64,000 bases of DNA. Source: Deferribacteraceae bacterium V6Fe1. Lineage in GTDB: Bacteria > Chrysiogenota > Deferribacteres > Deferribacterales > Deferrivibrionaceae. Shown piece after piece: positions 1,752-21,301 of this stretch. How positions within the stretch are numbered: position 1 is the first letter of the stretch; each line of letters starts with the position of its first letter. The stretch lies in assembly GCA_022813675.1 (NCBI GenBank), contig CP063375.1:880001-944000 (forward strand), written 5' to 3'. The notes beneath the pieces were generated by a model that did not search any database, was not told the DNA's origin, and worked only from the letters and a program-made list of their open reading frames with translations. A program made the position numbers and the translations under genes.

Positions 1752-1824
1752 GCGGGTGTAGCTCAGCTGGTAGAGCGCGACCTTGCCAAGGTTGAGGTCG
1801 CCGGTTCGAGTCCGGTCACCCGCT
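1752..1824 (+). tRNA. tRNA-Gly (GCC), integration target of element 1
   Basis: A 73-base tRNA with acceptor GCGGGTG/CACCCGC, anticodon GCC and U73. Its T arm onward (1805-1830) is the left attachment site of element 1, and the same bases recur at 6552-6577. The tRNA itself remains intact. Confidence 0.95.
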
Positions 1825-1830
1825 TTTTTT
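1805..1830 (+). repeat. attL of element 1
   Basis: The 26 bases run from TTCGAG in the T arm to the run of seven T after the tRNA, and match 6552-6577 exactly. The identity continues to 1864 and 6611 (60 bp) because a decayed second element follows the right end. Confidence 0.9.
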
Positions 1831-1925
1831 GCGTCCGTCATTCGGTGTCATATCCTTTCATATTACCTTATTTTACAAATATTTGCAGATATTTTTTGAC
1901 TTTTCATATTTTTGTCAATAACTAT

Positions 1926-2073
1926 TTTTACTCGAAAAAACGAGTAAAAAAACGAGTAAAAAGTCATATTTTGGGCATTCTTTACTCGTTTTTAAGACAA
2001 AGTACTTGTTTATTAGTAATTTGTAAGAAATTTTTATGCTTTTTTACATTTTCTCTCATCAAAACTTTACTCG
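1926..2073. promoter_or_regulatory. Candidate integrase arm-type sites, left end of element 1
   Basis: CGAGTAAAA-type motifs occur at 1926-1934 (reverse), 1941-1950, 1953-1962, 1981-1988 (reverse) and 2066-2073 (reverse), between attL and the integrase start. The same motif recurs near the right end (about 6458-6503). Clustered repeats near both ends of an integrase-borne element are typical of arm-type binding sites for the N-terminal domain; binding itself is inferred. The set is duplicated in element 2. Confidence 0.5.
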
Positions 2074-2107
2074 CAAATATTACAAATAAAAATTGCGAGG
2101 TGTTTTT

Positions 2108-3330
2108 ATGGCAAAGAAGAATATGTCAGAAAAAGAAATTAAGAAACTCAAACCGGTCGAAGGAAATATTTTAAAAGAGAGGGTATCGTATAGGCTGTAT
2201 ATTTATGTTTATGAAAATGGCAGAAAGGTGTGGTATTACCGTCAAAGCAATAATTCTGACAAACTTATTGGTGAATATCCGATAGTTTCATATACCGAAG
2301 CTTTTGACCGTAGAGATAAAATGAGTAATGCAGAAAAAATGGGCATTCCTCTATCATTGGAAATTAAGGTGAATGACATGTTTTATAAGTATTTTGAATT
2401 AAAAAGTAACAGATGGTCCGATTACACAAGAAAAAGAAAGAAGCAAATTTATGAGAAGGACATTAAGCCGATATTGGGTGATATGCTGATACAAAAGGTA
2501 ACGATAAACCACATTTTAAAAGTTGTAAAAGTCATTGAAGACAGAGATGCCCTTCATACATTGGAAAAGGTAGTGGTGATTATTAAGAATATATTTAATA
2601 AAGCAAAAAGCTTTGGTTATATACAAATAAACCCGGCCAGTGAATTGGAAGAGCTTGTAAAAAAACCTGTAAGAAAAAACTATGCCGCTTTAACAGACCC
2701 AGAGGGTATAAGTAACCTTGTAAAAGGTTTAGAGTACTATAAGGGTAATAATATAACAAAAATGGCTTTACAATTTCTTTTGCTAACCGCCCAAAGGAGC
2801 TATACAGTCAGGGCAGCTAAATGGGAAAATATAGATATTGAAAATGGGATTTGGGATATTCCGGCTGAAGATATGAAGATGAAAACACCTTTAAGATTGC
2901 CTTTATCAAATCAGGCAATTAACTTACTGAAGGAAATGAAACAATATACCGGTGATAAAAAGTATATCTTTTACTCATTTTATTCCAAAAGCGGAATATT
3001 AAGTGAAAATACATTTAATTTGGCTTTAAGAAGAATTGGTTTTAGCAGTGATGAAACAGTAGCACATGGACTTAGGACAAGTTTTATGAGCAGTATGGCG
3101 GAAATGGGTTTTCCTGTTGATGTTTTAAATCTTATTCTTGACCATAAAAGAGAAATAAAATTGAGGCAGCTTACAATAGGTCGGAAAGGTTTGAAGATAA
3201 AAAGATGGTATTGCGGGCTTGGGCTGACTATCTTGATAAACTTAAAAAGTCTGAGAGACCGTCAGCTATTAAAATAAAGCTTGCCAAGTCAAGTATAGAA
3301 TCTTACTCAATAGTAGAAAGGGTATCCTAA
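2108..3330 (+). pseudogene. int: P4-type tyrosine integrase, element 1 (frameshift removes catalytic Tyr)
   Basis: The start at 2108 (MAKKN) follows a GCGAGG ribosome site. The N-terminal 90 residues are the arm-binding DUF4102-like domain. The catalytic domain keeps Arg (TAQRS), the HGLR motif and the LDHK histidine. The A-run at 3146-3149 is one base shorter than in element 2 (18465-18469). The frame therefore shifts right after LDHK and the protein ends at 3277, losing the AAYNRSE segment with the nucleophilic tyrosine. The lost frame continues to 3330. As it stands the gene product should be inactive. A homopolymer sequencing error cannot be excluded. Confidence 0.85.
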
Positions 3331-3344
3331 ATGGATATCCTTTT

Positions 3345-3529
3345 TTAATCTTCATTTTTGGCATTTTCAATAAATTCAGTGATATCTGACAACCGCCATA
3401 ATTTAACCCCCATATTTAATTTTATGGGCTTAGGGAATATCCCGGCTTTCATTCCTCTCCTGTAAGTGCTTTCAGAAACCTTAAAATTTGAAGTACATCT
3501 TTTAAGCGAATAAAACCATTATCGTGCAT
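3345..3529 (-). pseudogene. AlpA/excisionase-like regulator, element 1 (frameshifted)
   Basis: This is the counterpart of the intact 61-residue gene at 18665-18850. One A is missing from the run at 3483-3486 (four A here, five in copy 2), which breaks the frame in the helix-turn-helix. It lies tail-to-tail with the integrase, a usual arrangement for recombination-directionality or regulatory genes of P4-like islands. Confidence 0.75.
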
Positions 3530-3590
3530 ACTTACCCCCCATAAAGTTTAGTAGCAATAAGATACCAACGTAAAGTTTACCTGATATAAA

Positions 3591-3610
3591 TTTTGGTTAA
3601 TCAACCAAAA
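3591..3610. promoter_or_regulatory. Inverted repeat upstream of AlpA, candidate operator
   Basis: TTTTGGTT and AACCAAAA face each other around a 4-base centre (AATC), about 60 bp upstream of the AlpA-like start. The same repeat is at 18912-18931. The position fits an autoregulatory site; no binding evidence is available. Confidence 0.4.
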
Positions 3611-3904
3611 TAAGTTTTGATTTTAAATTCGGTTTTTAATGGTTAGATTTTCAAGCTACTCAATATATATATGTTAGCGAAATCCTCCCGACTTTAAGGC
3701 TCGAGATACCCTTGAAAATCTATAAAAACCTACAAAATCGTAGGATAGCAAAGGATACAATCTGCCATAAATGTATTTTGTTGTAGCAGAACCAAATACG
3801 AGACAACTGCAATTTTAAATTGCAAATAGCTCCTTACAGCAGTTTTTCTGTTTTTTCTGTAAAGTTATCTTATTGATAACAATACAAATAACCTAATAAA
3901 ACCA

Positions 3905-4037
3905 CAATTCATTCACATTGTAAATGTGAACGAATTGGGCAAGGTTTTTGATATACTTTTTTATATCATTTACGTTTGAGATATTTAAATCTCTTCGAGA
4001 TTTGTTTTATTTATGTGACACTGCACATAAATAAAAC
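3905..4037. other. Cluster of three strong hairpins (candidate structured RNA or recombination/replication site)
   Basis: Hairpin 1 (3905-3937) has a 6-bp plus 8-bp stem split by one mismatch and the loop GTA. Hairpin 2 (3987-4003) pairs AAATCTC with GAGATTT around TTC. Hairpin 3 (4004-4037) has a perfect 14-bp stem, GTTTTATTTATGTG with CACATAAATAAAAC, and the loop ACACTG; it abuts hairpin 2 directly. All are repeated in element 2 (from about 19226). The function is unknown. Confidence 0.6.
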
Positions 4038-4252
4038 GTTAAATATACAATCACTGTCGACGCAGTTCTCCTGCCTATTTTTTATCTTTAACGAACTCTT
4101 GCTATATAATATAAGCTAGTCAAGTTTTTTTATTAGTTTTTTACAGCATTTGATAAAGTTGCTAAAATTAGAAAGATAACCGAAAACAGTCAGGAATAAT
4201 AGTTTGACTGAGTAAAATTATTTCATAAAAATTTAAAAAATGCGTAATAAAG

Positions 4253-4282
4253 TTGCGATATCTATTTTAAAGGTGGTATAAT
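4253..4282 (+). promoter_or_regulatory. Candidate promoter for the CRISPR transcript, element 1
   Basis: TTGCGA at 4253-4258 and TATAAT at 4277-4282 are 18 bp apart, about 310 bp before the first repeat and pointing into the array. The same boxes occur in element 2. It could instead drive a leader RNA. Confidence 0.45.
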
Positions 4283-4288
4283 TAGAAA

Positions 4289-4592
4289 GAGTTTGCAGCT
4301 TGAAAGCTGAATAAGTTGTGAGTGATAAGTAAAACAAACAATGGTTTTTGTTTTAATTTGGCGACTTGATTTCAAGTTGATTTTTAAAATTTGCTATTTT
4401 TAACGCTTATTGTTAATTGTCAATAAGTTACAGGAAAAGTTAGATAGGTAGAACTTGAAATTTTTAATCGTTATTTATCAATAAGTTACAAAATGGGGTA
4501 TCAAAATTTACAAAGTAGAAAAATTGATACCCCCCCCTTCTTTAAAAATGCCCTTGCAAGTATCTGAAAATATGGTATTAAAAAGGGGTGCT
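4289..4592 (+). promoter_or_regulatory. CRISPR leader, element 1
   Basis: An AT-rich leader directly before repeat 1. It contains a 13-bp direct repeat TCAATAAGTTACA (4420-4432 and 4478-4490) and a 10-bp inverted repeat GGGGTATCAA/TTGATACCCC (4495-4504 and 4524-4533). The orientation is supported by the array itself: spacers unique to this copy are at this end and shared spacers lie further away. Confidence 0.65.
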
Positions 4593-6188
4593 ATTGGAAT
4601 TTATGACCTGACTTGAAGGGATTACGACTTTTCTGCTTGCTCTAAAGCATTTCTAATTTGTTCTTCTATTGGAATTTATGACCTGACTTGAAGGGATTAC
4701 GACTTTAAACCGAGTGTCAGCGGAGGCCCCAGCATCTGCATTGGAATTTATGACCTGACTTGAAGGGATTACGACATTTTACTAAAAAATGATTAAACAC
4801 AAATCGGGAACAACATTGGAATTTATGACCTGACTTGAAGGGATTACGACAGTATATTGAAAACCGGTGGCATGAACAGACGGAGGCACATTGGAATTTA
4901 TGACCTGACTTGAAGGGATTACGACTTATTCTCTTCATCCCACGCTCTGAATTTTATATCTATTGGAATTTATGACCTGACTTGAAGGGATTACGACATT
5001 AAAGACTACTTTACTGTTACTGTTTACAGTAATATTATTGGAATTTATGACCTGACTTGAAGGGATTACGACATTTGCTCATCAAGAGTCCTAAACTCTT
5101 GACCTTTTGATTGGAATTTATGACCTGACTTGAAGGGATTACGACAAAACAGTATTCTTATTTCTTTTAACAAATGGCATCTTATTGGAATTTATGACCT
5201 GACTTGAAGGGATTACGACCCTATGGTTGCCTACAAATATAACTTCTTTATTGTTTTCATTGGAATTTATGACCTGACTTGAAGGGATTACGACTTTTAC
5301 CCAACATGGTCTACAATTCTCCTTGTAAACTCATTGGAATTTATGACCTGACTTGAAGGGATTACGACTAATGCAAGACCCAATGCTTTCATTGTGAAAC
5401 TAAACATATTGGAATTTATGACCTGACTTGAAGGGATTACGACAATGCTTTCATTGTGAAACTAAACATCTCTGCCTCCTTATTGGAATTTATGACCTGA
5501 CTTGAAGGGATTACGACTCCCTTTCCATCGCAAATGCCCACATTATATTCCATCTATTGGAATTTATGACCTGACTTGAAGGGATTACGACATACTTATA
5601 TTTCTGGCAAAGCAGGCTAATAAACTGATTGGAATTTATGACCTGACTTGAAGGGATTACGACCCTTCCAGCTTTGTAAGTGGATGGATATAAGTATATA
5701 ACATTGGAATTTATGACCTGACTTGAAGGGATTACGACTTGTCAGTTTTTGATGAAAAAAAGTGTCTTATATATTAATTGGAATTTATGACCTGACTTGA
5801 AGGGATTACGACTGTTCATACTTCCTCCATATCTCAATTATTTGTTGTTTAATTGGAATTTATGACCTGACTTGAAGGGATTACGACTCATTACTCTCAG
5901 GAACGGCGATGCGCTCTACCTTATAGTATTGGAATTTATGACCTGACTTGAAGGGATTACGACTTTTTACAAGTCTATTTATCATCAGCTTCACCCTCAC
6001 CCAATTGGAATTTATGACCTGACTTGAAGGGATTACGACAATTACTGATTAAATCCCCAGCGTCAGAAATTGTTAAAAATTGGAATTTATGACCTGACTT
6101 GAAGGGATTACGACTTAAGAAAACATCTCTTTCTTCAGCAGTTAGGCTTTCCATTGGAATTTATGACCTGACTTGAAGGGATTACGAC
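4593..6188 (+). CRISPR. CRISPR array 1: 22 repeats, 21 spacers
   Basis: Identical 36-bp repeats begin ATTGGAATTTATGACC and end GAAGGGATTACGAC. Spacers are 36-40 bases. The last 8 bases of the repeat (ATTACGAC) would form the crRNA 5' handle if transcribed from the leader. Variable spacer lengths and the weakly folding repeat fit a class 1 (type III or I) system better than type II, but the subtype is not decided. Spacers 14-17 (5592-5851) are identical and in the same order as spacers 9-12 of array 2; the other 17 are unique. Spacers 11 and 12 overlap by 26 bases. No cas genes are present in the window. Confidence 0.99.
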
Positions 6189-6551
6189 TTATACCGTAAT
6201 GCGAGACTTGTAAATCGTTATCCGGATATTTTTTAATGAAGTTAGGAGATGGCTACAATTTTTCTTATCTATCATTTTTATGACTCTTTTCTGATTTGGT
6301 TATTCGTCTTTTCTCCATTTCTGTTAATGTTAAATGTATAATTATTCCCCAGTAAAAGCCCTTAAAATCGGTAGTGTATAATCAGAATCGCAATAAACCA
6401 GGGTTAAAATTTGCTATTGAAAAATATTCACAATTTAAGCATATTTTACGGGTAAAGTGAGTAAAGTGAGATGATGAAAAATGAGTAAAAAAACGAGTAA
6501 AAATATGTGCGTTACAGAAAAAGTCAATTATAGGAATATGTTAAAGCTTAT
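6189..6551. other. Right end of element 1
   Basis: A 363-bp non-coding stretch after the last repeat. Near its end are TGAGTAAAG (6458-6466), TGAGTAAAAA (6482-6491) and CGAGTAAAAA (6494-6503), matching the left-end arm-type motifs. At least five single-base differences from element 2 are visible here, many more than in the 2.8 kb left part. Confidence 0.6.
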
Positions 6552-6577
6552 TTCGAGTCCGGTCACCCGCTTTTTTT
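6552..6577 (+). repeat. attR of element 1
   Basis: An exact copy of 1805-1830, carrying the TCCGG T-arm version of tRNA-Gly(GCC). Without the element, the tRNA would run straight into what now follows 6577. Confidence 0.9.
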
Positions 6578-6738
6578 GCGTCCGTCATTCGGTGTCATAT
6601 CCTTTCATATTGTAAGTTTATCTTGTTGATAATAAATAACCTGCTTTATCGATTCATCATATTGTAAATATTATTTAATTGGGTAAGGTTTTTGATATAC
6701 TTTTTCCTATCGGTTACATTTGAGATATTCAATTCTCT
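6571..6738. mobile_element. Decayed remnant of a third element copy
   Basis: The bases after attR repeat the left inner end of the element (identical to 1831-1864), then jump to sequence about 75-80% like 3858-3995 of the element by eye. Shared words include AAGGTTTTTGATATACTTTTT-like sequence and TTTGAGATATT. The integrase, AlpA and array are deleted. This is a scar of an older tandem insertion at the same tRNA. Nothing recognisable follows up to the Fic gene apart from an inverted repeat. Confidence 0.7.
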
Positions 6739-7022
6739 GTATATTTTTTATTCTGACATTATATTTTGTATTTATAAGTTCTAAATATCAGTAAAATAAA
6801 TTGATTTAGAGACGCTCAATTTGGAGGCGCTACACCATCAATGATAAAAAGATTTCAAGGGAGATAGGGGCACAATTAAATTGACATTAACGAATAGTAT
6901 GGTAAAAACTTGCAATATAAGTTTAGATGTGTCACGTTTTAAAAATCTGCTTGTTTGCGTGACACAACAAACTATTTGTGATAACTTAAATTAGCGTCTA
7001 AATGATAAAAATAGAGTGACAA
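6739..7022. other. Intergenic region before the Fic gene
   Basis: No ORF is seen. GTGTCACG (6929-6936) and CGTGACAC (6958-6965) form an 8-bp inverted repeat with a 21-base gap, about 60 bp upstream of the Fic start; this is a possible operator. A TTGACA at 6881 could be a -35 box. Confidence 0.4.
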
Positions 7023-7994
7023 ATGAATGGTGAGGAACTGATTAAAAAAAGGAAAGACATATTAGAGGGTTTAGGTGGTCTTCCTGAGCCGGAAGTAATA
7101 AATAAAGAATGGCTATATCTGTTAGGAGAAGAAACAAGAAACTCTATATTAGTTGAAGGATATTTTGTATCGGAAAAAGAGCTAAAAACTGTTTTGTTAA
7201 AAAATCAACCTATGACAAGGACAGAAGAGGAAGCTTTTAACTATTTCAGAACAGCCTCATTTATTTATGAGCTTGCTTATGAAAATTATAAACAGAAAGA
7301 ATTTTTATTTGGGATACCATTGATAAGGCAGATAAATAAAAGCCTTGGTAATAGTGGTGAGTTCAGAAAAGGTGAAATAAAGGTTGCAGGAGCAAAATTC
7401 AATCCACCTGAAAGTTATGTACAAGATTGGGCTAATATATTTGTAGATTTCATTAATCATACTGAAAAGGATTTTAATTTTAATAATATTTCGATTTCAC
7501 ATGGTTTCTTTGAAGAGATTCATCCTTTTATTGATGGCAACGGAAGGACGGGGAGAATAATTTTAAATTATCTTTTTATTAGTAAAGGGTATCCACTTGT
7601 GGTAATTAAGGGTGATGAAGATAATAAAAAACTTTATTATAGGGGGCTCGAAGAGATTGATGTTCAAATATCTGAGGTTTTTCAAAAGTATAAAAATAAG
7701 CATCCAAATGGGGACGAAATTATTGGTCAACTTAAGGCTACAAAATCAAAACTGTTGAAAAATCTGATATTAGAGAGTCTAATAGACAGTTTGGACAGAA
7801 TAATTATAGGTATTCTTGAAAGGCAAGGCAAAAAATTAGAACTGGTATCAGATTTATTATCTGATATAGGTTATAGCCCATCGAGTGCAAGACAGCTTAT
7901 AAAAAGAGGGAAAATAATAGCAGTAAAAAGGGATAATAAATGGTTTTCTATAAAAGATATAGTTAATAAATTTCTTAAAGTAGAGAGTGTGTGA
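7023..7994 (+). CDS. Fic-domain protein with N-terminal inhibitory helix
   Basis: The protein has 323 residues. The Fic core has the full active-site motif HPFIDGNGRTGR at about residues 167-178, with catalytic His and the phosphate-binding GNGR, so it should be an active AMPylase or a related nucleotidyl transferase. SILVEG at about 41-46 matches the (S/T)xxxE(G/N) inhibitory helix of class II Fic proteins, so the activity is probably self-restrained. The C-terminal 80 residues look like a winged-helix tail (ARQLIKRGKI). There is no separate antitoxin gene. It sits right after the decayed element remnant and may be old cargo; this is inference from position only. Confidence 0.88.
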   Translation: MNGEELIKKRKDILEGLGGLPEPEVINKEWLYLLGEETRNSILVEGYFVSEKELKTVLLKNQPMTRTEEEAFNYFRTASFIYELAYENYKQKEFLFGIPLIRQINKSLGNSGEFRKGEIKVAGAKFNPPESYVQDWANIFVDFINHTEKDFNFNNISISHGFFEEIHPFIDGNGRTGRIILNYLFISKGYPLVVIKGDEDNKKLYYRGLEEIDVQISEVFQKYKNKHPNGDEIIGQLKATKSKLLKNLILESLIDSLDRIIIGILERQGKKLELVSDLLSDIGYSPSSARQLIKRGKIIAVKRDNKWFSIKDIVNKFLKVESV

Positions 7995-12700: not shown

Positions 12701-13325
12701 TTGGGCTTATGATATTGGTTATGGCGGTTTAGATCATGTGCTTGCTGATAATAAGAATATAAATGTACTTGTGCTTGATACAGAAGTGTATTCTAATACA
12801 GGTGGACAAGCTTCAAAATCTACAACTATTGGTTCGATTGCTAAGTTTGCATTTGCTGGTAAAGGAACCGAAAAGAAAGACCTTGCAATGATTGCAATGA
12901 CATATGGTCATATCTATGTGGCTAAAGTCTCTCTTGCAAACCCTGCTCAGTGTATTAAGGCATTTGTTGAGGCTGAAAGTTATGATGGGCCATCTATTAT
13001 CATTGCCGAATCTCATTGTATTGCTCACGGTATCGATATGTCAAAAGGTGTTGAGCAACAAAAGCTTGCCGTTAACTCAGGATATTGGATGCTTTACAGA
13101 TTTAATCCTGAGCTTAAAAATGAAGGTAAGAATCCTTTGACTATTGACAGTAAAGAGCCGACAATGTCTGTCGAAGATTTTATGAAGACAGAAAATAGAT
13201 TTAGAGCTGTAGCAAAGATGTTCCCTGAAAGGGCTAAAATGTTGGCAGAGCTTGCTGAAAAGAGTGTAAAAGCGAGAAATTCTCTCACGAGACAATTAGC
13301 TGCAAAAATAGACTGTACCGAATAA
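9762..13325 (+). CDS. nifJ: Pyruvate:ferredoxin (flavodoxin) oxidoreductase, single-chain type
   Basis: The 1187-residue protein is the full-length fused form. It oxidises pyruvate and CoA to acetyl-CoA and CO2 with reduction of ferredoxin, or runs in reverse for CO2 fixation. Domain order: the pyrimidine/transketolase-like N-terminus (YPITPSSVMGE); a gamma-type domain with the Rossmann-like segment; two 4Fe-4S motifs at about residues 698 (CIQCGICSFVCP) and 754 (CTGCGACVFNCP); then the thiamine diphosphate domain with CAGCGETPYVRL (about 826) and GGDGWAYDIGYGG (about 977). AAGGAGG lies 4 bp before the ATG. It is a single-gene unit with its own promoter and terminator. It is oxygen-sensitive as a family and points to anaerobic metabolism. 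Confidence 0.97.
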   Translation: MAEKKFVNIDGNTAAAYVAHATNEVIAIYPITPSSVMGELADEYSAKGKKNIWGTVPKVVELQSEGGASGAVHGALAAGALTTTFTASQGLLLMIPNMYKIAGELTPTVFHVSARAVATHALSIFGDHSDVMACRQTGWSMLVSNNPQESMDFALIGQAATLRSRVPVLHFFDGFRTSHEIRTTEEIPFEVMKEMIDDELVKAHRERGLSPDHPTIKGTAQNPDVFFQGREASNKFYEAAPAIFKQEMEKFFKLTGRKYNLFDYIGAPDAEKVIIMMGSGADVAEEAVEYMNSLGEKVGLMKIRLYRPFSLEDFVKALPKSVSKIAVLDRTKEPGGLGEPLYLDVRTAIGEAMQKKMVKFDRYPIIIGGRYGLGSKEFTPAMVKAVFDNLDAAEPINSFTVGIEDDVTNKSLKYDPSWLTPQDGVFNGMFFGLGSDGTVGANKNSAKIIGELTGSNVQAYFVYDSKKSGSMTTSHVRFGKKPIKSSYLVQEADFIGCHNFSFLEQYDIVTKLKKGGTFLLNSIYSADEVWDKLPAEVQKQLIEKGAKFYVINANEIAEKIGLGNRVNVILQTAFFKIANVAPFDKVVESIKKAIEKTYGKYGDSVVNMNKKAVDAGADELYEVKVPSSVTSSIKMSKYINDPDAPEFVKKAISKMVANEGDDVPVSWLPVDGTFPVGTSKYEKRNIAINVPQWDPEVCIQCGICSFVCPHATIRMKVYDEEILKDAPATFKYTDAKGKEFAGMKFSIQVAVEDCTGCGACVFNCPAKSKTDPTHKAINMVPQVPLRETERENLKFFLSIPELDPSKYNKTTLKGSQLAPHMFEFSGACAGCGETPYVRLMCHLFGDRAIIANATGCSSIYGGNLPTTPYTTRQDGLGPAWGNSLFEDNAEYGYGMRLAVDKFNEQAVEILNSLKDKLDGKLVDEILTAPQKTQIEIEEQRNRVKALKEALKTIDAPEAKKLLELADYLVKKSVWIVGGDGWAYDIGYGGLDHVLADNKNINVLVLDTEVYSNTGGQASKSTTIGSIAKFAFAGKGTEKKDLAMIAMTYGHIYVAKVSLANPAQCIKAFVEAESYDGPSIIIAESHCIAHGIDMSKGVEQQKLAVNSGYWMLYRFNPELKNEGKNPLTIDSKEPTMSVEDFMKTENRFRAVAKMFPERAKMLAELAEKSVKARNSLTRQLAAKIDCTE

Positions 13326-13331
13326 TTATAT

Positions 13332-13352
13332 GGGGGCTTAGCCCCCTTTTTT
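13332..13352 (+). terminator. Terminator of PFOR
   Basis: GGGGGC and GCCCCC pair around TTA, followed by six T, 6 bp after the stop codon. Confidence 0.85.
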
Positions 13353-13731
13353 ATTTTCCCGGGCTTTTGTGGACATGCACTACTTTTAATTTTCCATCAA
13401 AATTGACTACCACTCTACTTTCATTTACGACTTTGTGTGCGATTTCCTCATTTTTTGAGGATACTACTAATGTGTATGACAGTATTGCACAATTTCCATA
13501 AATTTGTGCCCGTTTGTCAAGAAGCATAATATTAAATTTGTTATGAGTGCCTGCCCAGTCGGCTTCCATCATAAATTTATGAAAATCAAGTCCGTCAATT
13601 CTGTGAGGAGCCACAAACCATTCATAAAGACCTAAGTCCTCTACACACGAATCTTTGTATTTTTCAAAATTTCCCGAGTAAATTGCATTGAGATGCTCCT
13701 GCAAAAATTCCCACAATATCTTTTCGTTCAC
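13351..13731 (-). CDS. NTF2-like (SnoaL / CaMKII-association type) protein
   Basis: A 126-residue single-domain protein of the cone-shaped alpha+beta NTF2 fold. It has the pattern EHLNAIYSGNFEKY, an ADWAGTHN segment and a C-terminal strand pair ending VVHVHKS, similar to the calcium/calmodulin-kinase II association domain family. Its function in bacteria is unknown. It starts with GTG at 13731, supported by AGGAGG 7 bp upstream. The end touches the PFOR terminator. Confidence 0.65.
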   Translation of the reverse strand: MNEKILWEFLQEHLNAIYSGNFEKYKDSCVEDLGLYEWFVAPHRIDGLDFHKFMMEADWAGTHNKFNIMLLDKRAQIYGNCAILSYTLVVSSKNEEIAHKVVNESRVVVNFDGKLKVVHVHKSPGK

Positions 13732-17071: not shown

Positions 17072-17144
17072 GCGGGTGTAGCTCAGTTGGTAGAGCATCA
17101 GCTTCCCAAGCTGAGGGTCGCGGGTTCGAGTCCCGTCACCCGCT
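17072..17144 (+). tRNA. tRNA-Gly (CCC), integration target of element 2
   Basis: A 73-base tRNA with acceptor GCGGGTG/CACCCGC, anticodon CCC and U73. Its T arm reads TCCCG where the Gly(GCC) gene reads TCCGG. This one-base difference distinguishes the two att halves of element 2. Confidence 0.95.
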
Positions 17145-17150
17145 TTTTTT
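17125..17150 (+). repeat. attL of element 2
   Basis: The T arm to T-run of tRNA-Gly(CCC). It differs from 21276-21301 by one base (TCCCG versus TCCGG). Confidence 0.9.
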
Positions 17151-17427: not shown

Positions 17428-18650
17428 ATGGCAAAGAAGAATATGTCAGAAAAAGAAATTAAGAAACTCAAACCGGTCGAAGGAAATATTTTAAAAGAGA
17501 GGGTATCGTATAGGCTGTATATTTATGTTTATGAAAATGGCAGAAAGGTGTGGTATTACCGTCAAAGCAATAATTCTGACAAACTTATTGGTGAATATCC
17601 GATAGTTTCATATACCGAAGCTTTTGACCGTAGAGATAAAATGAGTAATGCAGAAAAAATGGGCATTCCTCTATCATTGGAAATTAAGGTGAATGACATG
17701 TTTTATAAGTATTTTGAATTAAAAAGTAACAGATGGTCCGATTACACAAGAAAAAGAAAGAAGCAAATTTATGAGAAGGACATTAAGCCGATATTGGGTG
17801 ATATGCTGATACAAAAGGTAACGATAAACCACATTTTAAAAGTTGTAAAAGTCATTGAAGACAGAGATGCCCTTCATACATTGGAAAAGGTAGTGGTGAT
17901 TATTAAGAATATATTTAATAAAGCAAAAGCTTTGGTTATATACAAATAAACCCGGCCAGTGAATTGGAAGAGCTTGTAAAAAAACCTGTAAGAAAAAACT
18001 ATGCCGCTTTAACAGACCCAGAGGGTATAAGTAACCTTGTAAAAGGTTTAGAGTACTATAAGGGTAATAATATAACAAAAATGGCTTTACAATTTCTTTT
18101 GCTAACCGCCCAAAGGAGCTATACAGTCAGGGCAGCTAAATGGGAAAATATAGATATTGAAAATGGGATTTGGGATATTCCGGCTGAAGATATGAAGATG
18201 AAAACACCTTTAAGATTGCCTTTATCAAATCAGGCAATTAACTTACTGAAGGAAATGAAACAATATACCGGTGATAAAAAGTATATCTTTTACTCATTTT
18301 ATTCCAAAAGCGGAATATTAAGTGAAAATACATTTAATTTGGCTTTAAGAAGAATTGGTTTTAGCAGTGATGAAACAGTAGCACATGGACTTAGGACAAG
18401 TTTTATGAGCAGTATGGCGGAAATGGGTTTTCCTGTTGATGTTTTAAATCTTATTCTTGACCATAAAAAGAGAAATAAAATTGAGGCAGCTTACAATAGG
18501 TCGGAAAGGTTTGAAGATAAAAAGATGGTATTGCGGGCTTGGGCTGACTATCTTGATAAACTTAAAAAGTCTGAGAGACCGTCAGCTATTAAAATAAAGC
18601 TTGCCAAGTCAAGTATAGAATCTTACTCAATAGTAGAAAGGGTATCCTAA
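17428..18650 (+). pseudogene. int: P4-type tyrosine integrase, element 2 (frameshift in the middle)
   Basis: Identical by eye to the element 1 integrase except for A-run lengths. The run at 17935-17938 has four A where element 1 has five (2605-2609). The first frame therefore stops at 17949 after the arm-binding and core-binding parts. The rest stays open to 18650 in another frame, starting again at the ATG-less LEELVKK region, and contains the entire catalytic set: Arg (TAQRS), Lys (KMKTPLRLPLS), HGLR, LDHKKRN and the tyrosine in AAYNRSE. The two copies break at different places, so a complete integrase (about 407 residues) can be pieced together from both. Confidence 0.88.
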
Positions 18651-18664
18651 ATGGATATCCTTTT

Positions 18665-18850
18665 TTAATCTTCATTTTTGGCATTTTCAATAAATTCAGT
18701 GATATCTGACAACCGCCATAATTTAACCCCCATATTTAATTTTATGGGCTTAGGGAATATCCCGGCTTTCATTCCTCTCCTGTAAGTGCTTTCAGAAACC
18801 TTAAAAATTTGAAGTACATCTTTTAAGCGAATAAAACCATTATCGTGCAT
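18665..18850 (-). CDS. AlpA family / excisionase-like DNA-binding protein, element 2 (intact)
   Basis: A 61-residue protein with the MerR-like winged helix of AlpA/Xis proteins: FIRLKDVLQIFKVSESTYRR, then GIFPKPIKL and WRLSDITEFIENA. In P4-like islands AlpA controls integrase expression and excision. It faces the integrase gene tail to tail, with an inverted repeat (18912-18931) upstream of its own start. This is the only intact recombination-related gene of the two elements. Confidence 0.85.
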   Translation of the reverse strand: MHDNGFIRLKDVLQIFKVSESTYRRGMKAGIFPKPIKLNMGVKLWRLSDITEFIENAKNED

Positions 18851-19913
18851 ACTTACCCCCCATAAAGTTTAGTAGCAATAAGATACCAACGTAAAGTTTA
18901 CCTGATATAAATTTTGGTTAATCAACCAAAATAAGTTTTGATTTTAAATTCGGTTTTTAATGGTTAGATTTTCAAGCTACTCAATATATATATGTTAGCG
19001 AAATCCTCCCGACTTTAAGGCTCGAGATACCCTTGAAAATCTATAAAAACCTACAAAATCGTAGGATAGCAAAGGATACAATCTGCCATAAATGTATTTT
19101 GTTGTAGCAGAACCAAATACGAGACAACTGCAATTTTAAATTGCAAATAGCTCCTTACAGCAGTTTTTCTGTTTTTTCTGTAAAGTTATCTTATTGATAA
19201 CAATACAAATAACCTAATAAAACCACAATTCATTCACATTGTAAATGTGAACGAATTGGGCAAGGTTTTTGATATACTTTTTTATATCATTTACGTTTGA
19301 GATATTTAAATCTCTTCGAGATTTGTTTTATTTATGTGACACTGCACATAAATAAAACGTTAAATATACAATCACTGTCGACGCAGTTCTCCTGCCTATT
19401 TTTTATCTTTAACGAACTCTTGCTATATAATATAAGCTAGTCAAGTTTTTTTATTAGTTTTTTACAGCATTTGATAAAGTTGCTAAAATTAGAAAGATAA
19501 CCGAAAACAGTCAGGAATAATAGTTTGACTGAGTAAAATTATTTCATAAAAATTTAAAAAATGCGTAATAAAGTTGCGATATCTATTTTAAAGGTGGTAT
19601 AATTAGAAAGAGTTTGCAGCTTGAAAGCTGAATAAGTTGTGAGTGATAAGTAAAACAAACAATGGTTTTTATTTTAATTTGGCGACTTGATTTCAAGTTG
19701 ATTTTGAAAATTTGCTATTTTTAACGCTTATTGTTAATTGTCAATAAGTTACAGGAAAAGTTAGATAGGTAGAACTTGAAATTTTTAATCGTTATTTATC
19801 AATAAGTTACAAAATGGGGTATCAAAATTTACAAAGTAGAAAAATTGATACCCCCCCCTTCTTTAAAAATGCCCTTGCAAGTATCTGAAAATATGGTATT
19901 AAAAAGGGGTGCT
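18851..19913. other. Non-coding block and CRISPR leader of element 2
   Basis: Matches 3530-4592 with two base changes seen (TTTTTATTTT for TTTTTGTTTT, and GATTTTGAAAA for GATTTTTAAAA). It repeats the operator-like inverted repeat, the three hairpins (from about 19226), the TTGCGA/TATAAT promoter and the leader with its GGGGTATCAA inverted repeat. No ORF is seen. Confidence 0.7.
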
Positions 19914-20912
19914 ATTGGAATTTATGACCTGACTTGAAGGGATTACGACCTCATTAACGGCTTATCTTTGAGACAAGTGTCAATAAGCATTGGAATTTAT
20001 GACCTGACTTGAAGGGATTACGACCCAAACTATCAAGACCGCTTAAAAACTTTGCCAACTCTTATTGGAATTTATGACCTGACTTGAAGGGATTACGACT
20101 TTTTCGGTAACTTCGGTTTCAGAAACTTCAGTTTCAACATTGGAATTTATGACCTGACTTGAAGGGATTACGACCAAACTATCAAGACCGCTTAAAAACT
20201 TTGCCAACTCTTTATTGGAATTTATGACCTGACTTGAAGGGATTACGACTGAGACAAGTGTCAATAAGCTCTTGCTTGACCTTTTCATTGGAATTTATGA
20301 CCTGACTTGAAGGGATTACGACTTTGTTCGTTTGTGGGCTTGTGTGGAGAAGCCCAAAGCAATTGGAATTTATGACCTGACTTGAAGGGATTACGACTTA
20401 TATTTTTATTTTAAGCAGACACCCCGTATTGGAATTTATGACCTGACTTGAAGGGATTACGACCAAACGACTTTAATTTGTCTTTTGCGAAAATCTGCCT
20501 TGTATATTGGAATTTATGACCTGACTTGAAGGGATTACGACATACTTATATTTCTGGCAAAGCAGGCTAATAAACTGATTGGAATTTATGACCTGACTTG
20601 AAGGGATTACGACCCTTCCAGCTTTGTAAGTGGATGGATATAAGTATATAACATTGGAATTTATGACCTGACTTGAAGGGATTACGACTTGTCAGTTTTT
20701 GATGAAAAAAAGTGTCTTATATATTAATTGGAATTTATGACCTGACTTGAAGGGATTACGACTGTTCATACTTCCTCCATATCTCAATTATTTGTTGTTT
20801 AATTGGAATTTATGACCTGACTTGAAGGGATTACGACTCAAGCGTTTTTTCTCTAAAGCATACTGCAAATAAATTTATTGGAATTTATGACCTGACTTGA
20901 AGGGATTACGAC
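19914..20912 (+). CRISPR. CRISPR array 2: 14 repeats, 13 spacers
   Basis: The same 36-bp repeat as array 1. Spacers are mostly 36-39 bases; spacer 7 (20398-20427) has 30 and spacer 8 (20464-20505) has 42. Spacers 9-12 equal spacers 14-17 of array 1. Spacers 2 (20025-20063) and 4 (20175-20213) are the same target shifted by one base. Spacers 1 and 5 share 20 bases. Spacer 13 next to the tail is not in array 1. Leader-proximal spacers 1-8 are unique to this copy. Confidence 0.99.
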
Positions 20913-21275: not shown

Positions 21276-21301
21276 TTCGAGTCCGGTCACCCGCTTTTTT
21301 T
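21276..21301 (+). repeat. attR of element 2
   Basis: Carries TCCGG, the tRNA-Gly(GCC) form, although the insertion is in tRNA-Gly(CCC). This half therefore came in with the element. The sequence changes to unrelated chromosomal DNA right after the seven T. Confidence 0.9.

Follow-up and report, generated by a model that had tools for sequence, protein, structure and literature searches.

A tRNA-integrated island in Deferrivibrio metallireducens whose recognizable cargo is limited to a cas-less CRISPR leader and array

The genome of the thermophilic bacterium Deferrivibrio metallireducens V6Fe1, assembled from Nanopore and Illumina reads into a single contig of 2,358,333 base pairs (C1), contains two copies of a small element in which a leader and array of clustered regularly interspaced short palindromic repeats (CRISPR) lie between the attachment (att) repeats of a tRNA-integrated island. 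Both copies, named A and B, are in the 64-kb stretch C1:880001–944000, hereafter the window, to which all coordinates refer unless they are given for C1 or a numbered locus (L). The elements are quite probably two copies of a member of a family of small non-autonomous tRNA islands, in which a CRISPR leader and array of the host type occupy the cargo slot and would be served in trans by the CRISPR-associated (Cas) proteins of the host. The genome paper does not mention CRISPR (PMC11896075). It is already known that defense genes are carried on tRNA islands and that arrays lacking cas genes occur on plasmids and viruses; an island whose defense cargo is memory only, a tRNA island with a cas-less array as cargo, was not found in the open-access literature. 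If functional, the element would enable immune memory to be inherited horizontally apart from its enzymes, taking up about 2 kb where a complete CRISPR-Cas locus would otherwise be needed. The two near-identical copies, with an old block of spacers in common and different new ones, in a cultured and sequenced type strain, represent a convenient natural experiment. They make testable the general question of whether orphan arrays carried by mobile DNA gain new spacers and work by way of the Cas proteins of the host.

The same module is present behind two tRNA-Gly genes, as the initial annotation had proposed. It consists of an att repeat, an integrase gene, alpA on the opposite strand, a non-coding block, a CRISPR leader, an array, a right end, and a second att repeat. 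Element A is 4.8 kb long and element B 4.2 kb; they have the same orientation and are separated by 15.3 kb, and the alignment of their backbones outside the arrays shows 5 differences in 2770 positions and 5 in 389 (about 0.3%). The target of element A is a tRNA-Gly (gcc) gene (1752–1824, + strand; detected by ARAGORN and Rfam) and that of element B is a tRNA-Gly (ccc) gene (17072–17144, +; tRNA gene call). The 26-bp att core TTCGAGTCCGGTCACCCGCTTTTTTT is found exactly at 1805–1830 (+), where it forms the left end of A and overlaps the 3′ end of the tRNA gene, at 6552–6577, and in a repeat search at 21276–21301 (+), the right end of B. The left att repeat of B (17125–17150, +) contains one mismatch, at position 10. 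The tRNA-side att repeat of B carries the base of the ccc gene at this position, and the distal att repeat carries the gcc-type base. This mixture is what would be expected from the entry of an element with a gcc-type att site into the ccc gene by a crossover within the last 16 bp. The flanks of A and B are mutually unrelated, and homology outside the elements is restricted to the tRNA-Gly genes. A third copy, positioned at another tRNA-Gly (gcc) gene (C1:1673663–1674172), is 99% identical over 510 bp and is then truncated; what remains of it is an att repeat, the integrase gene up to codon 53, and part of the right att repeat (L025 5664–6200). The integrase and AlpA have moved the island among tRNA-Gly genes in the past, and the elements may be able to excise and transfer at present.

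The integrase gene of A (2108–3277, +) was delineated from the list of open reading frames (ORFs), Pfam, and comparison with copy B and with the intact gene of a sister species. It encodes a P4-type tyrosine recombinase (PF00589, PF22022, and PF13356) and adjoins a tRNA gene. A 1-bp deletion at approximately 3146 places its C-terminus out of frame after residue ~346. The integrase gene of B (17428–18650, +; ORF list and comparison with A) is broken by a 1-bp deletion at approximately 17925. The alpA gene is intact in B (18665–18850, −; 61 residues; PF05930 with 27.3 bits against a cut-off of 21) and, according to the alignment to this copy, is frameshifted at approximately 3483 in A (3345–3529, −). 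With insertion at a tRNA 3′ end, direct repeats, an integrase, and AlpA, although both integrase frames and the alpA frame of A are broken as sequenced, A and B have the features of a P4-type integrase/AlpA tRNA island. Beyond alpA, a structured non-coding block (3526–4142 in A and 18847–19463 in B, both −) is followed by the 300-bp CRISPR leader, which was defined by leader comparison in A (4292–4592, +) and is 99% identical in B (19613–19913, +). The two parts, a ~620-bp block and a leader, together make up what had been described as about 1 kb of conserved non-coding DNA; the DNA is present, although it is not a single unit. The right end of A (6405–6577, +), which includes the att repeat, is 72.6% identical over 175 bp to that of the sister-species element. 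The ORFs confirm the initial annotation in that the module contains no cas, replication, or virion gene between its att sites, and neither the ORF list nor a cas1 search of the genome placed a cas gene inside or beside the elements.

The islands of related bacteria identify the segment that carries the array as a cargo slot. In the sister species (genome G009, putative D. essentukiensis), the same cluster of tRNA-Arg/His/Leu/Gly genes contains an element with an intact 407-residue integrase that is 78% identical, AlpA, a second recombinase pair (a 331-residue PF12835 protein and a 109-residue protein), the structured block, and both att repeats. The cargo of this element is a lipoprotein gene, and it has no array and no cas genes. 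An island at a tRNA-Leu gene of V6Fe1 itself (L024) contains an integrase, AlpA, the recombinase pair, a 95%-identical structured block, and GHKL/HerA-type genes. Similar islands are located at tRNA-Gly, tRNA-Leu, tRNA-Pro, and tmRNA genes of Deferribacter desulfuricans and Flexistipes, some with another type of integrase and with no AlpA detected. Relatives occupy the same tRNA-Gly genes as A and B. In the metagenome-assembled genome (MAG) of a sister lineage (G010), the syntenic tRNA-Gly (ccc) gene is associated with a truncated integrase that is 63% identical, and this is the one relative that a scan of genome contigs with the integrase gave. Past the structured block, the islands of relatives carry type II (L116) and type I (L118) restriction–modification systems, the KAP NTPase PDC-S20 (L117 and L119), a pPIWI-associated nuclease with an MBL protein (L115), and, in L024, the HerA/GHKL genes. 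The homology of element A to L024 and L055 breaks off at 4142 and returns at approximately 6405, and the leader and array lie exactly between these points, in the slot 4143–6404 (+). Since this slot holds other cargo in the relatives, the array is the cargo of a defense-type island. The initial annotation had regarded an integrase plus an array as a self-contained CRISPR memory carrier of a class not yet established. A cas-less leader and array are indeed the sole recognizable cargo; however, the scaffold belongs to a tRNA-island family whose slot usually holds other defense genes, and a separate class is not supported.

Most of the relatives have the second recombinase pair (PF12835 and a protein of ~109 residues), placed between alpA and the structured block. 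The pair is absent from A and B, and its only match in V6Fe1 is in the tRNA-Leu island. The second recombinase had no relative among viral contigs when used as a query. A PF12835 recombinase with a partner of ~95 residues is also encoded by small proteobacterial plasmids (Aeromonas caviae p7, L139; Halomonas pTHAF12_c, L142), where hairpin-rich non-coding DNA precedes it.

The single cas1 gene of V6Fe1 (C1:1460308–1461165) is located 0.56 Mb from the elements, beside a type III-A system. The gene after it is cas2, and the gene before it encodes PrimPol, a primase-polymerase (AEP-TOTE; PADLOC PrimPol) at L022 7169–8965. The host operon includes the complete set of Cas10/Csm1 to Csm5, Cas6, Card1, and a CARF-adenosine deaminase, the fusion being encoded downstream of the Csm operon (L023 946–3042). 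No Cas3 scored above the cut-off in V6Fe1. The cas operons of the host lie away from tRNA genes and are accompanied by arrays of their own, and the arrays of A and B are not part of a chromosomal CRISPR-Cas locus that might have been split by chance. The cas region lies between two chromosomal arrays. Of the 36 repeat positions, 2 in the array near cas1 and 3 in the array on the csm side differ from the element repeat. Compared with the leader of the array near cas1, that of the element shows 93% identity overall and no difference in its last 60 bp. Its identity to the csm-side leader is 79%, and to other Deferrivibrio leaders 79–82%, with the exception of that of G010 (72%). The csm-side leader falls into a group with leaders of the sister species, two of which it matches at 92–93% identity, and the element leader falls with that of the array near cas1. 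It is most likely, judged from these identities, that the element leader came from, or was exchanged with, the array near cas1 in the V6Fe1 lineage. The locus that the initial annotation had suggested looking for thus exists, and with no cas genes in or beside the element, a repeat agreeing at 34 of 36 positions, and the leader match to the cas locus of the same genome, the arrays of A and B have the attributes of orphan arrays. The segments of the cargo slot that surround the leader and array, 4143–4291 (150 bp ahead of the leader) and 6189–6404, gave only weak, A+T-rich matches as to their origin; one 68-bp match of 75%, located past the csm-side array of the chromosome, is no more than suggestive.

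In the sister species, the array next to csm includes 14 repeats that match the element repeat exactly. In this array (L082 8711–~11950; G009 C21), the 14 element-type repeats lie amid 30 repeats of another type. A block exchange between arrays is a likely origin of this arrangement, because sequential acquisition cannot easily yield such a mid-array block of 14 repeats.

The 36-bp repeat is present in 36 exact copies in the two elements, 22 in array A (4593–6188, +; 21 spacers) and 14 in array B (19914–20912, +; 13 spacers), with none expected from 100 shuffles. Spacers A14–A17 are identical to B9–B12, and no other spacer is identical between the arrays. The common block demonstrates that the arrays are of common descent. 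On the leader side of this block, the 13 spacers of A and the 8 of B do not overlap at all; on the far side, four spacers of A and one of B differ, which fits repeat-mediated deletions. Distinct spacers at the leader end of a nearly unchanged backbone indicate that they were acquired after the separation of the copies. The acquisition may have taken place within the present cell line, or in separate hosts with the copies coming together later, and the data do not separate these two histories.

Some of the spacers were sampled from the same targets. Spacers B1 and B5 sample one target twice, as do B2 and B4, and A11 and A12 overlap as well. The target of B1/B5 is also overlapped by a chromosomal spacer of the sister MAG (G010, Deferribacteraceae). 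Read as reverse complements, A12 is AAGGAGGCAGAGATG and A17/B12 includes GGAGGAAGTATG; the two sequences resemble ribosome-binding sites with start codons. CRISPR RNAs (crRNAs) from these spacers would be complementary to mRNA, as a type III system requires; the two cases are only suggestive. Mature crRNAs of arrays A and B would carry the 8-nt handle ATTACGAC. Counts of open frames on the spacer strands were uninformative. A class-wide spacer search scored few candidates per genome, and in V6Fe1 these were dominated by the arrays themselves, so that it is not a clean test for self-targeting.

It is possible to propose how such an island would work. The P4-type integrase, assisted by AlpA, would carry a circular form from one tRNA-Gly gene to another. 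Within any given host, the leader would drive transcription of the array and serve as the site of spacer insertion. The transcript would be processed by the Cas6 of the host, the crRNAs loaded by its type III-A (Csm) complex, and new spacers added at the leader end by its Cas1–Cas2. The island would carry adaptive memory as cargo and borrow the enzymes, and it would benefit in the same way as from other defense cargo, as hosts that keep the island would survive. Expression, interference, and adaptation in trans are suggested by the match of leader and repeat to the host locus together with the divergence of the arrays. The strongest form of this proposal, a recombinase-mobile memory bank whose leader-bearing array still acquires spacers, is used by the host type III-A system, is copied within the genome, and is moved between cells, may be given slightly less than an even chance.

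Several observations weigh against an island that is mobile and active today. The integrase genes of A and B are both frameshifted as sequenced and no copy has an intact one, so that A and B may be immobile. The array-bearing form is known from one genome and one lineage and was not seen at related loci of other Deferribacterota. No target of the concatenated spacers was found in phages or plasmids, and three 20–21-mers from the doubly sampled targets had no match in IMG/VR, so that protection by the arrays is only presumed. Furthermore, an ancestor that possessed cas genes is conceivable. The broken genes have a second possible explanation. The deletions at ~3146 and ~3483 in A and at ~17925 in B are all changes of A5 to A4, and they lie in near-identical repeats of the Nanopore-plus-Illumina assembly. 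Short-read polishing is weakest in such repeats, and the deletions may therefore be either assembly errors or signs of decay. Two copies of a transposase gene (L024 8641–9858 and L025 7474–8693) are each broken at a different place; these breaks and the integrase frameshifts jointly prompt the question of whether the repeats of the V6Fe1 assembly contain residual insertions and deletions.

If the frameshifts are taken as genuine, A and B might be relics, decaying islands that once caught an array by chance recombination and in which the arrays are neither expressed nor used. The damage to both integrases and to AlpA of A, the loss of the recombinase pair, the reduction of the third copy to 510 bp, and the failure to find spacer targets fit this explanation. 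However, it does not account well for 36 of 36 repeats being identical, for an intact leader with the same last 60 bp as the host leader, or for wholly different leader-side spacers at ~0.3% backbone divergence, which imply acquisition after separation; we consider the relic explanation rather unlikely. A related possibility is that the elements are deletion forms of a larger island that once carried a full CRISPR-Cas system, of which the array alone was retained. Relatives do hold extra genes, the second recombinase pair, between alpA and the structured block, and complete CRISPR-Cas systems on integrase islands are known in Vibrio (PMC5109276, PMC6360697). The initial annotation had named cas or phage genes between the same att sites of relatives as the sign of such an origin; none were found there, and no cas gene was recognized in any related element examined. 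With the array in the slot of other cargo, and the host cas operons away from tRNA genes and furnished with their own arrays, a deletion origin is improbable.

The arrays might alternatively serve competition between elements, directed against rival islands or phages instead of benefiting the host, as has been proposed for viral mini-arrays. The double sampling by B1/B5 and B2/B4 and the chromosomal spacer of the sister MAG on the B1/B5 target point to a shared invader. Nevertheless, no spacer matches the compared related islands beyond chance length, and the 21 and 13 spacers contrast with the one or two of viral mini-arrays (PMC11656645), so that this role is unlikely. It is extremely improbable that B arose as a segmental duplication of A by homologous recombination instead of integration. 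The short distance, same orientation, and near identity of the copies would be expected of such an event; however, both ends of the elements are at att repeats, the att bases at B combine those of the target gene and the element, and relatives use the same tRNA-Gly genes. The duplication was rejected; the lack of flanking homology beyond the att sites and tRNA-Gly genes also counts against it.

The interpretation of A and B as small islands with a host-type array as cargo places them near several known systems. The IntY-AlpA islands of Pseudomonas (I55 family, described as ‘phage defense elements’) similarly have a tyrosine integrase and occupy the 3′ end of a tRNA or tmRNA gene; they too are marked by direct repeats, encode AlpA but no transfer genes, and have defense cargo (PMC12595487). 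However, they carry defense genes and are larger, their common region alone being ~18 kb, whereas the recognizable cargo of A and B is confined to a cas-less leader and array. Orphan arrays on plasmids, 207 of which have been found, are likewise cas-less arrays on mobile DNA for which the use of host Cas in trans has been proposed (PMC9071438). By contrast, the carrier of A and B is a tRNA-integrated island with a known backbone and known usual cargo, and two copies with diverged arrays are present in one genome. Virus-borne mini-CRISPR arrays are also cas-less, have host-like repeats, and depend on host Cas (PMC11656645, PMC8616872). A and B differ from them in being non-viral and in having 21 and 13 spacers and a full leader. 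No spacers against related elements were found in the related islands, phages, plasmids, and IMG/VR as searched; an identity as viral mini-arrays was rejected on the spacer numbers and the lack of virion and replication genes between the att sites. CRISPR is a cargo of integrase islands and integrative and conjugative elements of Vibrio and Campylobacter, which carry cas genes, unlike A and B (PMC5109276, PMC6360697, PMC8743540). CRISPR-associated transposons and casposons resemble A and B merely in joining CRISPR parts to mobile DNA, and were rejected as classifications because the elements contain no Tn7-like transposase, Cas effector, or Cas1.

A further lead, independent of the array, is the structured non-coding block that all of the island family has in common. 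It is ~620 bp long, is read toward AlpA or the second recombinase, and in nearly all members folds far better than shuffled sequence. The folding z-score is −7.6 for the block of A and ranges from −4 to −7.5 across members, with −2.6 in L085, where the segment is mostly an inserted toxin–antitoxin pair. An alignment of 11 sequences over a core of ~170 nt has 24 consensus pairs with 92.4% paired cells. Two-sided changes occur in 15 pairs, amounting to 57 such cells compared to 20.7 ± 3.5 in shuffled alignments and 3–13 with the partners slid; the consensus structure was derived from the same 11 sequences and is hence favored over the slid versions, although the margin is large. The covariance model R1 built from these 11 sequences identified 12 places in 6 of the 48 genomes scanned, all in such islands. 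The core in A (3583–3758, −) scored 142.9 bits in cmsearch, a match by construction, as the window copy is among the sequences used to build the model; the core in B is at 18904–19079 (−). Independently of R1, the block is recognized by its 95% DNA identity to L024, where it occupies 6273–6890; it is also present in L055 (~13000–13700) and L113–L119. All 10 occurrences outside the window adjoin the gene of the second recombinase, a tyrosine recombinase (PF12835) upstream of which the block lies, and the block has been kept in A and B, which have no recombinase pair. A search of Rfam, with gathering as well as relaxed thresholds, gave no credible match in the block, and R1 had no match on four proteobacterial plasmids carrying the same recombinase family. 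The block is a candidate for a new structured RNA or a recombination-site hairpin, and its hairpins may form in RNA or in single-stranded DNA.

Element A is arranged in tandem with a remnant of a related element that has no integrase (6578–7994, +). The remnant contains 34 bp of left-end sequence, a fragment of the structured block (6611–6738, 76% identity), and a Fic gene (7023–7994); a right att repeat of the remnant was not found. The Fic gene matches SoFic/PDC-S04 and represents the cargo of another island at the same tRNA-Gly gene.

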